Assembly (NCBI GenBank): GCA_030523645.1
Contig: JAUNIB010000004.1
Location: forward strand, 1 to 64,000
DNA from: Selenomonadaceae bacterium
Lineage (GTDB): Bacteria; Bacillota; Negativicutes; Selenomonadales; Selenomonadaceae
DNA: 64,000 bases
Direction: 5' to 3'
Positions 56,294 to 60,552 of this stretch are shown here, one piece after another (position 1 is the first letter of the stretch; every line of letters starts with the position of its first letter). The position numbers and the translations under genes were made by a program. The notes below the pieces were generated by a model. That model saw nothing but the letters and a program-made list of their open reading frames with translations. It did not search any database and was not told the DNA's origin.

Positions 56294-58414
56294 ATGAAAA
56301 GAATGAAAAAATCGCCGCAGAAGGAAAAAGTGCAAATGACCGGCATGGTAGACTACAACCATGCCCTTTTTGAAAGCATGGCCCAGTTCTGCGATGCGGT
56401 GCTGCTGATTGAGCTGAAGGAAGGGACAATCAAGACCCTCCACAACCGGCTCTTCCCGCTGATGATTGGGCGCACTGCTCCCCTGTCCTCCGTTCGGGAT
56501 TTCGTCCTCCGGTTCATGTCGGGCCATCAGGCGGAGGAACTTATCAGCCGTCTCAGTCCCCTGTACCTGCAGGGACTGCGGCAGAGCATTTCCTACTCTA
56601 CCGGAATATTCCTGGTGGGAGACCAGCCGCACAATCTCCATTACACCATGACTCCCGAATACGACGGATACAACCGGGTCGTCCGGGTATACCTGACCTT
56701 CCTTGATATGCAGGTATTCATGGAGAACAACGGTTTCGTGAAGGAGACGGAGCAGCCGGACGGCGGAGAGCAGCTCGCTGCAATGCCCCGGGAAATCAGC
56801 GACGAAATCGTCGCCAACAGAGCAAGGCAGCGGACACTGACTGAGGCTCTGATGGCGGCGGAGCAGGCCAACAAGGCAAAGACCGTATTCCTCAACAACA
56901 TGAGCCACGACATCCGCACCCCTATGAACGCTATCGTGGGCTACACTACGCTGGCCATCGCCCACATGGACGAGCCGGAGCTGGTGGCGGACTATCTCAG
57001 CAAGATAAAGACCTCTTCCGACCATCTCCTGTCCCTTATCAACGACATACTGGACATGAGCCGCATAGAGTCCGGCAAGATGAAGCTGGATGAGACGGAG
57101 GTATCACTGCCGGAGCTGATGAACGACCTCCAGAACATCGTCCGGGAGGAAATGAACTCCAAGAAGCTGGAGCTGTTCTTCGATACGGTAGATGTCACCA
57201 ATGAAGTCGTCTGGTGCGACCGGCTGCGGCTAAATCAAATCCTGCTGAACTGTATCAGCAATGCGGTGAAATACACCCCTGCCTACGGCTCCGTGGGCAT
57301 CCGGGTCATTCAGGAGCCGGGCAGCCGCCCCGACAGGGCGAACTATGTGTTTAAGGTGCTGGACACCGGTATCGGCATGAGCGATGAGTTTGCCAAGCAT
57401 ATCTTTGAGCCGTTCTCCCGGGAGGAAACCAGTACGGTAAACGGCATACAGGGTACCGGTCTCGGCATGGCCATTACCAAGAATCTGGTGGATATGCTGG
57501 GCGGCGATATCTCTGTCATCACCAGGAAGGGCAAGGGAACGGAATTTACCATCCGGCTTACCCTGAGAATTGCCGTGAAGGGTATCCATCAGGACTTCAT
57601 CATCGACAGCCTGTGGAACAATCACGCACTGGTGGTAGCGGCCAATCCAGACACCTGTATCAGCGTCACGGATATGTTGGCCAATATCGGCCTCCGGGCC
57701 GAGTGGACGGCCTCACCTCGGGAGGCGCTGCTCCGTACCGGCCATGCCAGCCGCAGGGGGGATCCCTACGAGCTGTATATCATCGACGATGCCCTGCCGG
57801 ACATGAGCGGCATTGAGCTGGCCCGGACAATCAGAAGCGGGGAAACTGTCAAATCAATGATTATCCTCACCTCCCATGACCGGGCGAGAGCGGAGACCAA
57901 GGCCCTTGACGCAGGGATAAATGTAATCTGTACCAAGCCCCTCTTTATGTCCAAGCTCCACGACACTATCCGACGGGCGCTGGAGAAAACGCCTGCCGAA
58001 GAAGCAGGGAAGCCTGCCGAAAGTCCGTCTCTGGAGGGACTCACCATCCTGCTGACGGAGGACAACGAGCTGAATCAGGAAATCGCCGTCACCCTCCTGA
58101 CCGACGCCGGAGCCGCAGTAGATGTAGCAGGCAACGGCAGCCTCGCCGTGGAAAGGATAACCGCCGAGCCGGAGGACAAATACGACCTGATACTCATGGA
58201 CATCCAGATGCCGGTGATGAACGGCTACGAGGCCACGAAAGCCATCCGGGAGCTGCCGGGGGCAAAGGGCAAAATCCCCATTATCGCCATGACCGCCGAT
58301 GCCTTCAGGGAGGACAAGCTGCAGGCTATCTCCTCCGGTATGAATGCCCATATACCGAAGCCAATCTCCATGGATGTACTGGCAGATACCATCCGGGAGG
58401 TACTTAATAGCTGA
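56294..58414 (+). CDS. Hybrid histidine kinase with two receiver domains
   Basis: A 706-residue cytoplasmic hybrid kinase. An N-terminal sensor-like region (~1-175) shows no clear family but aligns in style with the start of the protein at 12657. HisKA contains FLNNMSHDIRTPMNA (His ~204). HATPase has RLNQILLNCISNAVKYTP and GTGLGMAITKNL. Receiver 1 (~440-565) keeps the Asp in YIIDDALPDMSG but lacks the usual acidic pair near its start (HALVVAANPDT), so it may be a pseudo-receiver. Receiver 2 (~580-700) is complete (ILLTEDNELN, ILMDIQMPVMNG, HIPKPIS). The terminator after it is weakly placed; the condensation/cNMP protein gene follows. Confidence 0.9.
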   Translation: MKRMKKSPQKEKVQMTGMVDYNHALFESMAQFCDAVLLIELKEGTIKTLHNRLFPLMIGRTAPLSSVRDFVLRFMSGHQAEELISRLSPLYLQGLRQSISYSTGIFLVGDQPHNLHYTMTPEYDGYNRVVRVYLTFLDMQVFMENNGFVKETEQPDGGEQLAAMPREISDEIVANRARQRTLTEALMAAEQANKAKTVFLNNMSHDIRTPMNAIVGYTTLAIAHMDEPELVADYLSKIKTSSDHLLSLINDILDMSRIESGKMKLDETEVSLPELMNDLQNIVREEMNSKKLELFFDTVDVTNEVVWCDRLRLNQILLNCISNAVKYTPAYGSVGIRVIQEPGSRPDRANYVFKVLDTGIGMSDEFAKHIFEPFSREETSTVNGIQGTGLGMAITKNLVDMLGGDISVITRKGKGTEFTIRLTLRIAVKGIHQDFIIDSLWNNHALVVAANPDTCISVTDMLANIGLRAEWTASPREALLRTGHASRRGDPYELYIIDDALPDMSGIELARTIRSGETVKSMIILTSHDRARAETKALDAGINVICTKPLFMSKLHDTIRRALEKTPAEEAGKPAESPSLEGLTILLTEDNELNQEIAVTLLTDAGAAVDVAGNGSLAVERITAEPEDKYDLILMDIQMPVMNGYEATKAIRELPGAKGKIPIIAMTADAFREDKLQAISSGMNAHIPKPISMDVLADTIREVLNS

Positions 58415-58440: not shown

Positions 58441-58483
58441 GACAGAAAGCCCCCGGCAATGTCACGCCGGGGGTTTCTGCTGT
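58441..58483 (+). terminator. Hairpin terminator after the hybrid kinase
   Basis: Stem gcccccggc/gccgggggt extended by gacagaaa/tttctgctgtc. There is no long T-run, so termination may be partial. Confidence 0.7.
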
Positions 58484-58617
58484 CAGCGGTTATGCGGGCC
58501 GAAATCTTTTTTCTTCCACAGGCTGCCTCTGCTGTGGTATATTTATAAAGAAATAAGTAACATATTAAGAGAAATAACGGAAATAATTGTGCGCTCCCCT
58601 AGGAAAAGGAGGATACC

Positions 58618-60552
58618 ATGACTACCGAAAAAGACACAGCCGCTGCTCCCGGTACGCCTATTGACTGGAAAAATGTCCTGCCTCAGACGGACCTCGACAA
58701 TCTGGAATACAAATATATGGGACACATCGAGGCGGTCCGCACTCTGGACGCGGAAGAAGCGCTGATGTTTCAGGACTCCTGTCAGGACTTCCTCAGCATG
58801 GTTGTCCAGCAGCAGTTCCGATTGAAATCCCAGTACAGTACTCCGCCGCAGGACGGCACTGCTCCTGTCCTGTCAGCCTACGGCAAAAAAGGCGGCTCTG
58901 CTCTAATCTCTCCCATTGGTCTGGAGCGGAGACTACGCCGCCTGATGCTGAAGAACAAAGCCCTGCGTACCAGCTACTACCGGTCTGATAGCGGAGAGGT
59001 CTACGCCGTAGAGTCGGCGGTCAATATCCCCCTGCACACCATCACCTTCAACAGACTTACCGATCTGGAGCCGGAGGATGTGGGGCCGCACCTCCAGCGG
59101 GTCATGCAGGCCGACCGTCACTGCCCCTGCCGGCTGGACTCGCCTTTCCTGCCCCGTATACAGATATACTCCCTGTCTTCCTCGGAGTATGCAGTCATCA
59201 TCTCTCAGCCCCTCATCATCGCCCACCGCTGGGACCCGCAGAGCTTCCTGGCCTCCCTGCTTCATCCGGCCGACACCGCCATGCTGATGGATGCGGCGGC
59301 GGTACCGCAGCCCTCGGAATACCTGACGAAGCAGCATGAGTCTGCGGCCAATATGTCATTCTGGGAGGAATACCTGAGCGGACTGACCACCATGCCGGAG
59401 CTGCCCGGCTATCTCAGCCCCCTGCAGAAGCCTCAGCGGCTTCGGGTAGAGCTGCGGACTATTGACAATGATGCCTTCTCGGCGCTGAAGCTGGTCTGCT
59501 CCTCCGGAGACCGCAGGGAATGGATTGCCCTGCTGTCAAGCCTTTGGGGACTGACTCTCCAAAGCTTCAGCAAAAGTACCGATGTATGCTTCCCTGTCCA
59601 GCTCCCTGAGGAGGACAACCAGCGCCATATCAGCAGACTTCTCTTTGCCAACAGACCTATGCCCTGCCGCGTTATCGCCGGACAGTATGAGCGGGTCCAG
59701 GATCTGGTCCGTCAGCAGTATCAGAGCCTGCTGACTGCCATAGAGTGCGGCGCCCCCTCCCCGGATGAATTTAATCGCCTGACGAAGCAGAGCGGCACCT
59801 ACAAGCATATCCTGTCCTTCAGCGACTTCCAGAGCGTGGAGGTGCTGAATCCTCCCACCGACTGCGGCATTACCTCTACCATCTGGCACCTCTGCACCAA
59901 TACCGACAGCCTGCGGATAAACTTCCATCTCGACAGGGAAGTCCTGTCTCTGGAAGTCACCTACTACGAGGAAGCACTGAGCAAGGACAGCGTCAGCGCC
60001 ATACTTGACCGCTATATCCACACGCTGGAGCTGGCTCCGAAATACTGGCAGGCCATGTGCAGCGAGCTGGTAGAGGCGGCGCTCCCCATGCACCACAAAG
60101 AGCTGAATGAAAGACAGCACGAAATGCTGGCGAACATCCTCAGCAAGTCATCGCTGCTGGCCAAAGTGCCGAAGGAGCAGGTGAAGACCATGCTCACGGA
60201 AGCCTCCATCTACGACCTGCCCTGCTATGAGGTGGTGCAGACTACCGGCAGCCGGCAGAGCGACATACTGCTGCTCATCTCCGGCAATGTACTGCGGCAG
60301 CGGGTAAACAGCGAAGGCTGGATGGTTCCCCTGAACATCATCGGTCCCGGCGAGCTGGTCAATGAATTTGCCCTGCTGGACGAAACCAGCAAAATCTACG
60401 GCGAGGTGGTCAGCGACAAGGCTATTATCGTCGCCATCCCCATACCCTTCTTCCGGAAGCTGCTCCAGCAGATGAACGACTTCTCTCTGGACTTCGCCCA
60501 GTACCTTCTCAGACAGCTCGATACCTACCAGCACCTGTGGCTGACGGTGTGA
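58618..60552 (+). CDS. Condensation-domain-like protein fused to a cNMP-binding domain
   Basis: A 644-residue soluble protein of unusual make-up. Residues ~45-480 resemble the condensation-domain (CoA-dependent acyltransferase-like) fold: RRLMLKNKALRTSYYRSDSG matches the LxxxHxxLRTxf region. IIAHRWDPQS is where the HHxxxDG motif should be, reduced to one His and one Asp. NFHLDREVLSLEVTYYEEAL matches the end of the domain. Residues ~510-640 are a cyclic-nucleotide-binding domain (LLAKVPKEQVKTMLTEASIY, ILLLISGNVLRQR, GPGELVNEFALLDE). No helix-turn-helix follows. The start is ATG 58618 with aaaaggaggat. Whether the first domain is catalytic is doubtful; a ligand-regulated adaptor is an alternative. 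Confidence 0.72.
   Translation: MTTEKDTAAAPGTPIDWKNVLPQTDLDNLEYKYMGHIEAVRTLDAEEALMFQDSCQDFLSMVVQQQFRLKSQYSTPPQDGTAPVLSAYGKKGGSALISPIGLERRLRRLMLKNKALRTSYYRSDSGEVYAVESAVNIPLHTITFNRLTDLEPEDVGPHLQRVMQADRHCPCRLDSPFLPRIQIYSLSSSEYAVIISQPLIIAHRWDPQSFLASLLHPADTAMLMDAAAVPQPSEYLTKQHESAANMSFWEEYLSGLTTMPELPGYLSPLQKPQRLRVELRTIDNDAFSALKLVCSSGDRREWIALLSSLWGLTLQSFSKSTDVCFPVQLPEEDNQRHISRLLFANRPMPCRVIAGQYERVQDLVRQQYQSLLTAIECGAPSPDEFNRLTKQSGTYKHILSFSDFQSVEVLNPPTDCGITSTIWHLCTNTDSLRINFHLDREVLSLEVTYYEEALSKDSVSAILDRYIHTLELAPKYWQAMCSELVEAALPMHHKELNERQHEMLANILSKSSLLAKVPKEQVKTMLTEASIYDLPCYEVVQTTGSRQSDILLLISGNVLRQRVNSEGWMVPLNIIGPGELVNEFALLDETSKIYGEVVSDKAIIVAIPIPFFRKLLQQMNDFSLDFAQYLLRQLDTYQHLWLTV

Follow-up and report, generated by a model that had tools for sequence, protein, structure and literature searches.

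The outputs known for partner switching, a familiar control circuit of bacteria, are limited to sigma factors and a small number of diguanylate cyclases. In the spoIIAA-spoIIAB-sigF layout, the sigma factor gene comes after those of the STAS antagonist and the kinase. The phosphatase, STAS and kinase components of the RsbU-RsbV-RsbW-SigB and SpoIIE-SpoIIAA-SpoIIAB-SigF switches are also found near the genes of the family described here, but the sigma factor would be replaced, in its very gene position at some loci, by a protein that joins a condensation fold to a CRP-like domain. Partner switches with non-sigma targets, e.g., diguanylate cyclases, are already known (PMC8457831; STAS review, PMC8256260), so that the novelty would lie in the fold of the proposed effector. 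SiaABCD, HsbA-HsbD and BgrV-BgrR (PMC8457831) resemble the proposed system in having a non-sigma effector under STAS-type partners, but theirs is a diguanylate cyclase, whereas this one has a condensation fold. A full-text search, with most subscription papers beyond its reach, found no paper on the condensation/CRP-like architecture, nor any containing both 'STAS domain' and 'condensation domain'.

The gene and its product

The gene lies in the window (the whole stretch of 64,000 nucleotides of a Selenomonadaceae bacterium that was analysed) as an uninterrupted reading frame, whose GC content by codon position (0.59/0.39/0.75) is similar to that of the adjoining genes. An Rfam search of the window gave no matches. 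The features of the gene are the following:

58604..58612, + strand: ribosome binding site AAAAGGAGG, strong, 5' of the 58618-60552 gene
58618..60552, + strand: whole gene, pseudo-condensation plus CRP-like domain, 644 aa (Pfam, homologues)
58723..60051, + strand: condensation-fold region, residues ~36-478, with the Pfam match at 102-473 (Pfam, fold search)
58831..58911, + strand: insertion, residues 72-98, missing in most homologues (alignment), low model confidence
59209..59229, + strand: PLIIAHR, residues 198-204, at the HHxxxDG site (aligned to HHIIMDG of a true NRPS domain)
60229..60471, + strand: CRP-like (cNMP_binding) domain, residues 538-618 (Pfam, PDB match, hhalign)
60361..60396, + strand: degenerate phosphate-binding cassette, residues 582-593 (alignment to CRP)
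60475..60546, + strand: C-terminal helix, residues 620-643, final element, no helix-turn-helix (alignment, model)

The AlphaFold model of the whole protein, built from 76 sequences, has a pLDDT of 81 and a pTM of 0.73, and the segment 82-93, inside the insertion, falls below a pLDDT of 50. The original prediction, namely a condensation fold followed by a Crp-type domain with no DNA-binding motif, is supported by Pfam (below the cut-off for the Crp-type part), AlphaFold, Foldseek and hhalign.

A condensation fold without the catalytic motif

The first part of the protein matches the Condensation profile over its curated cut-off (PF00668, residues 102-473, E 1.8e-9), and shares with NRPS condensation domains, including the X domain, both this profile and the predicted fold over the whole domain. 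The structure prediction and fold search that had been proposed as a check give a two-lobed condensation fold for the N-terminal part; the best PDB matches of the model are NRPS condensation domains (Foldseek, E down to 4.7e-20), and the closest PDB sequence match of this part is bacitracin synthase 3, an NRPS protein. Unlike other PF00668 domains, however, this one lacks HHxxxDG, stands outside an NRPS chain, has a CRP-like domain attached and belongs to a family linked to signalling genes.

HHxxxDG is present in none of the 80 aligned family members, in which the position of the catalytic His is taken by Gln (59 members), Glu (8) or a His that has lost the rest of the motif (2). The window protein has Leu there. 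This motif had been described as reduced to AHRWD: it is indeed degenerate, but AHRWD is displaced from the catalytic site, its His sitting at the position of the motif's Asp. Judging from these residues, the pseudo-condensation protein is not expected to retain catalysis. A signal-controlled acyltransferase, that is, an active condensation-type enzyme switched by the CRP-like domain, had been one of two functions suggested for it. The fold is complete and a distant homologue that belongs to an NRPS cluster (L173) retains PHITFDG, but this function is very improbable because HHxxxDG is missing throughout the aligned family, mostly with Gln for the catalytic His, and because the condensation domain of a 372-aa paralogue, next to its CRP-like domain, is limited to the first part. 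The other suggestion, a degenerate ligand-binding adaptor, comes closer.

A non-canonical CRP-like domain

In the window protein, the cNMP_binding match of Pfam scores 24.0 bits, under the cut-off of 27.5 that better-conserved relatives exceed (30.8-37.9 bits). The family profile aligns with E. coli CRP at an E value of 7.7e-6 (hhalign), and the best PDB sequence matches of this second part are cyclic-nucleotide-binding or CRP-type proteins (5d1i, E 0.0016). The likeness to CRP/FNR domains lies in the probable fold, in the Glu of the cassette (CRP Glu72, retained in the window protein and in 50 of the 80 members) and in the C-terminal helix, a CRP-like C-helix whose family consensus is QMEKYQxLWxQS. 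In contrast to CRP/FNR, Asn stands for CRP Gly71 in all 80 members, and the phosphate-binding Arg82 has been lost in every one of them, being Ile in the window protein and Leu, Ile, Val or Met in 75. There is no helix-turn-helix domain either; since the helix at 620-643 ends the chain, nothing that could bind DNA follows the CRP-like domain. With both HHxxxDG and the phosphate-binding Arg lost, a classical cAMP sensor would be very unlikely, like the acyltransferase, and the residues of the CRP-like half give no reason to expect classical cAMP binding.

Distribution, selection and origin of the family

Homologues, mostly full-length and with 20-28% identity, occur in 109 of 189 Selenomonadaceae genomes; named loci come from Selenomonas ruminantium, Anaerovibrio, Schwartzia, Quinella and many rumen MAGs, and the family is common among rumen-type Selenomonadaceae. 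The 80 loci were located by a family-alignment search, an earlier single-sequence scan of named contigs having given nothing. Outside the Selenomonadaceae, three further genomes of their class carry the full architecture, and in a phylum sample of 398 genomes the matches beyond this family of bacteria were all partial ones to the condensation domain, most of them within very long frames of NRPS-like character. The 372-aa paralogue, which combines its shortened condensation domain with a CRP-like domain, is encoded in Anaerovibrio (L044:8611-9729).

Across ten close pairs, dN/dS ranges from 0.05 to 0.21, which attests, at the level of sequence, to purifying selection on the family. The window protein keeps 25 of the 40 columns conserved at ≥95% in the other members, and forms the longest terminal branch of the tree (2.31), so long that its exact place is unsure. 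This long branch and the loss of the catalytic motif could be signs of a decaying, functionless NRPS fragment, but the intact reading frame, the normal coding statistics, the family-wide presence, the low dN/dS of the relatives and the conserved C-terminal helix make such a fragment extremely improbable.

At one locus (L173:1-10343, genome G298), an NRPS is followed by a two-carrier protein and then by a condensation/CRP-like homologue, an arrangement that could represent the ancestor state. This homologue, which has the CRP-like domain as well, preserves both catalytic residues (His and Asp) in its PHITFDG, and in the unrooted tree it stands between NRPS domains and the remaining members, which form a 100/100 clade. 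The family probably descends from an NRPS-associated protein, and this NRPS-cluster protein would have lost catalysis before its spread in the Selenomonadaceae.

The hybrid kinase upstream in the window

The gene is preceded in the window by a kinase gene and by two signals in the gap between them:

56294..58414, + strand: hybrid histidine kinase with two receiver matches (context, probably outside the system)
58450..58473, strand unassigned: GC-rich terminator-like hairpin 3' of the hybrid kinase (called on the minus strand; the stem is symmetrical)
58515..58543, + strand: promoter-like site TCCACA-17-TATATT with extended -10 (weak; the number of such sites found does not exceed chance expectation)

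Because this gap of 203 bases contains a terminator-like hairpin and a weak promoter-like site, the kinase and the gene, both on the same strand, are probably separate operons and not a single one. The double-receiver kinase had been taken as the context of the gene, a linkage that does not generalise: kinases resembling it occur within ~5 kb at 4 of the 80 loci, and hybrid-kinase linkage was ruled out as the general context. In one Selenomonadaceae MAG, paralogues lie near receiver-GGDEF proteins and hybrid kinases (L119:1431-8743, L127:3037-9748), and L119 also has a nearby STAS gene. A role as two-component partner of the adjacent kinase draws on this adjacency and on the two paralogues, but it is decidedly unlikely in view of the hairpin and the gap, the few loci with similar kinases and the STAS gene near L119.

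A partner-switching module beside some relatives

In other genera, the neighbours of the family genes include SpoIIE/RsbU-type phosphatases, STAS antagonists and RsbW-like kinases, with domains confirmed by Pfam. At least one gene of this module lies within 5.5 kb at 27 of the 80 loci, less than 150 bp away at 25 of them, and all three types are present at 10. The 56 module genes are all on the same strand as the pseudo-condensation gene, which comes before or after the module in several gene orders. The STAS phosphosite (ASAGLR/SSAGLR) and the N- and G-boxes of the kinase look intact, and the phosphatases have Cache-HAMP (dCache-HAMP) or 5TMR input. The order is SpoIIE-STAS-kinase-pseudo-condensation gene at L138, with 4-base overlaps, and STAS-kinase-pseudo-condensation gene at L067 and L137; at these three loci the gene occupies the sigma-factor slot of the spoIIAA-spoIIAB-sigF layout. 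A sigma factor as hidden target within the linked operons was considered and rejected, as searches of the flanks of linked loci with own-genome sigma factors as queries found no similar gene.

The other 53 loci are not near module genes, and their neighbours (histidine phosphatase, menaquinone synthesis, ribosomal protein S15 and others) show no common functional theme. Across genomes, strong SpoIIE and the gene co-occur (106/19 versus 6/58 genomes; Fisher 6e-25, uncorrected for phylogeny, a p-value that overstates the association because the genomes share ancestry). Six genomes have the gene without strong SpoIIE and 19 show the reverse, several of them being incomplete.

The protein might instead act upstream, in which case its two halves would bind small ligands or acyl groups on carriers and would set the activity of the phosphatase, STAS protein or kinase as a sensor or scaffold. 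CRP-like folds usually sense, the gene may stand on either side of the module, and the conserved non-canonical pocket, with its invariant Asn, could hold another ligand. Such an input is nevertheless unlikely, as the phosphatases already have dedicated sensors and, at L138, L137 and L067, the gene has the position of a target and not that of an input. It is moderately probable that the dead condensation plus non-canonical CRP-like protein is an effector or regulatory partner of partner switching of the RsbU-RsbV-RsbW type. The data suggest that the phosphatase/STAS/kinase switch has taken on an enzyme fold as a new target.

In the genome of the window, the single STAS-kinase-SpoIIE-SpoIIE cluster is on contig C3 and the pseudo-condensation gene on C11; as the gene is unlinked from the module of its own genome, its role is assigned through family membership. 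The sigma factors of this genome are RpoD, a FliA/WhiG-type, SigH and one unclassified, and none of them reached the SigB/F/G cut-off. Two stand-alone condensation proteins with HHxxxD motifs are also encoded in it (L226:8126-9517, minus strand, and L225:7602-8936), and the former gene is followed by a MATE gene.

STAS-condensation fusions and MATE-kinase proteins

A separate gene type of the same genomes encodes proteins in which a STAS domain is joined to a full condensation domain, whose YHxxxDG motif (e.g., YHAIMDG) retains the catalytic His and Asp. These fusions and the proteins associated with them are:

L221:7047-8705: STAS-condensation fusion
L222:7165-8772: STAS-condensation fusion
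L223:9919-11511, minus strand: STAS-condensation fusion
L224:6787-8391: STAS-condensation fusion
L227:7252-8844: STAS-condensation fusion
L229:7442-9046, minus strand: STAS-condensation fusion
L222:8769-12401: A-PCP-C NRPS-like protein, ~1,205 aa, inside a STAS-condensation operon
L223:6285-9902, minus strand: A-PCP-C NRPS-like protein, ~1,205 aa, inside a STAS-condensation operon
L046:3369-5111: MATE exporter fused to RsbW-like HATPase_c_2
L083:5548-7302: MATE exporter fused to RsbW-like HATPase_c_2
L223:4509-6275, minus strand: MATE exporter fused to RsbW-like HATPase_c_2

The STAS-condensation genes mostly lie 3' of a SpoIIE phosphatase and 5' of a MATE-kinase fusion, and twice an A-PCP-C gene stands between the STAS-condensation and MATE genes; the MATE protein of L222 has no kinase domain at the threshold applied. 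The MATE-kinase fusion is also found in two operons of the catalytically dead protein (L046 and L083), and 77 of the 79 genomes with the STAS-condensation family, some forms of which are without the STAS part, carry the dead condensation/CRP-like gene as well. The fusion links the STAS and condensation folds directly.

Proposed mechanism and its meaning

In the proposed model, a signal would be sensed through the Cache-HAMP or 5TMR input of a membrane phosphatase (SpoIIE/PP2C), which would then dephosphorylate the STAS protein. Once free, the STAS protein would bind to the RsbW-like kinase or make direct contact with the effector. In this way the condensation/CRP-like protein would be released or engaged, as are the sigma factor or diguanylate cyclase of known systems, and would relay its state through protein contact and not through catalysis; carrier proteins or condensation enzymes may still be able to dock on its condensation fold. 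What we infer from these arrangements is the physical contact, the direction in which it works and the target further downstream. As a more tentative extension, the switch of the Selenomonadaceae may have been rewired to control condensation chemistry, so that active STAS-condensation, A-PCP-C and MATE-kinase proteins would together make up a small-molecule system gated by signals, and the dead protein would be the regulatory partner dedicated to it.

If the model is true, the condensation-fold output, together with the STAS-condensation fusion, would be a new output class of partner switching, and signals would have a route to gate NRPS-type chemistry post-translationally. The family would also make visible the path that leads from a catalytic NRPS relative to a signalling pseudo-enzyme.
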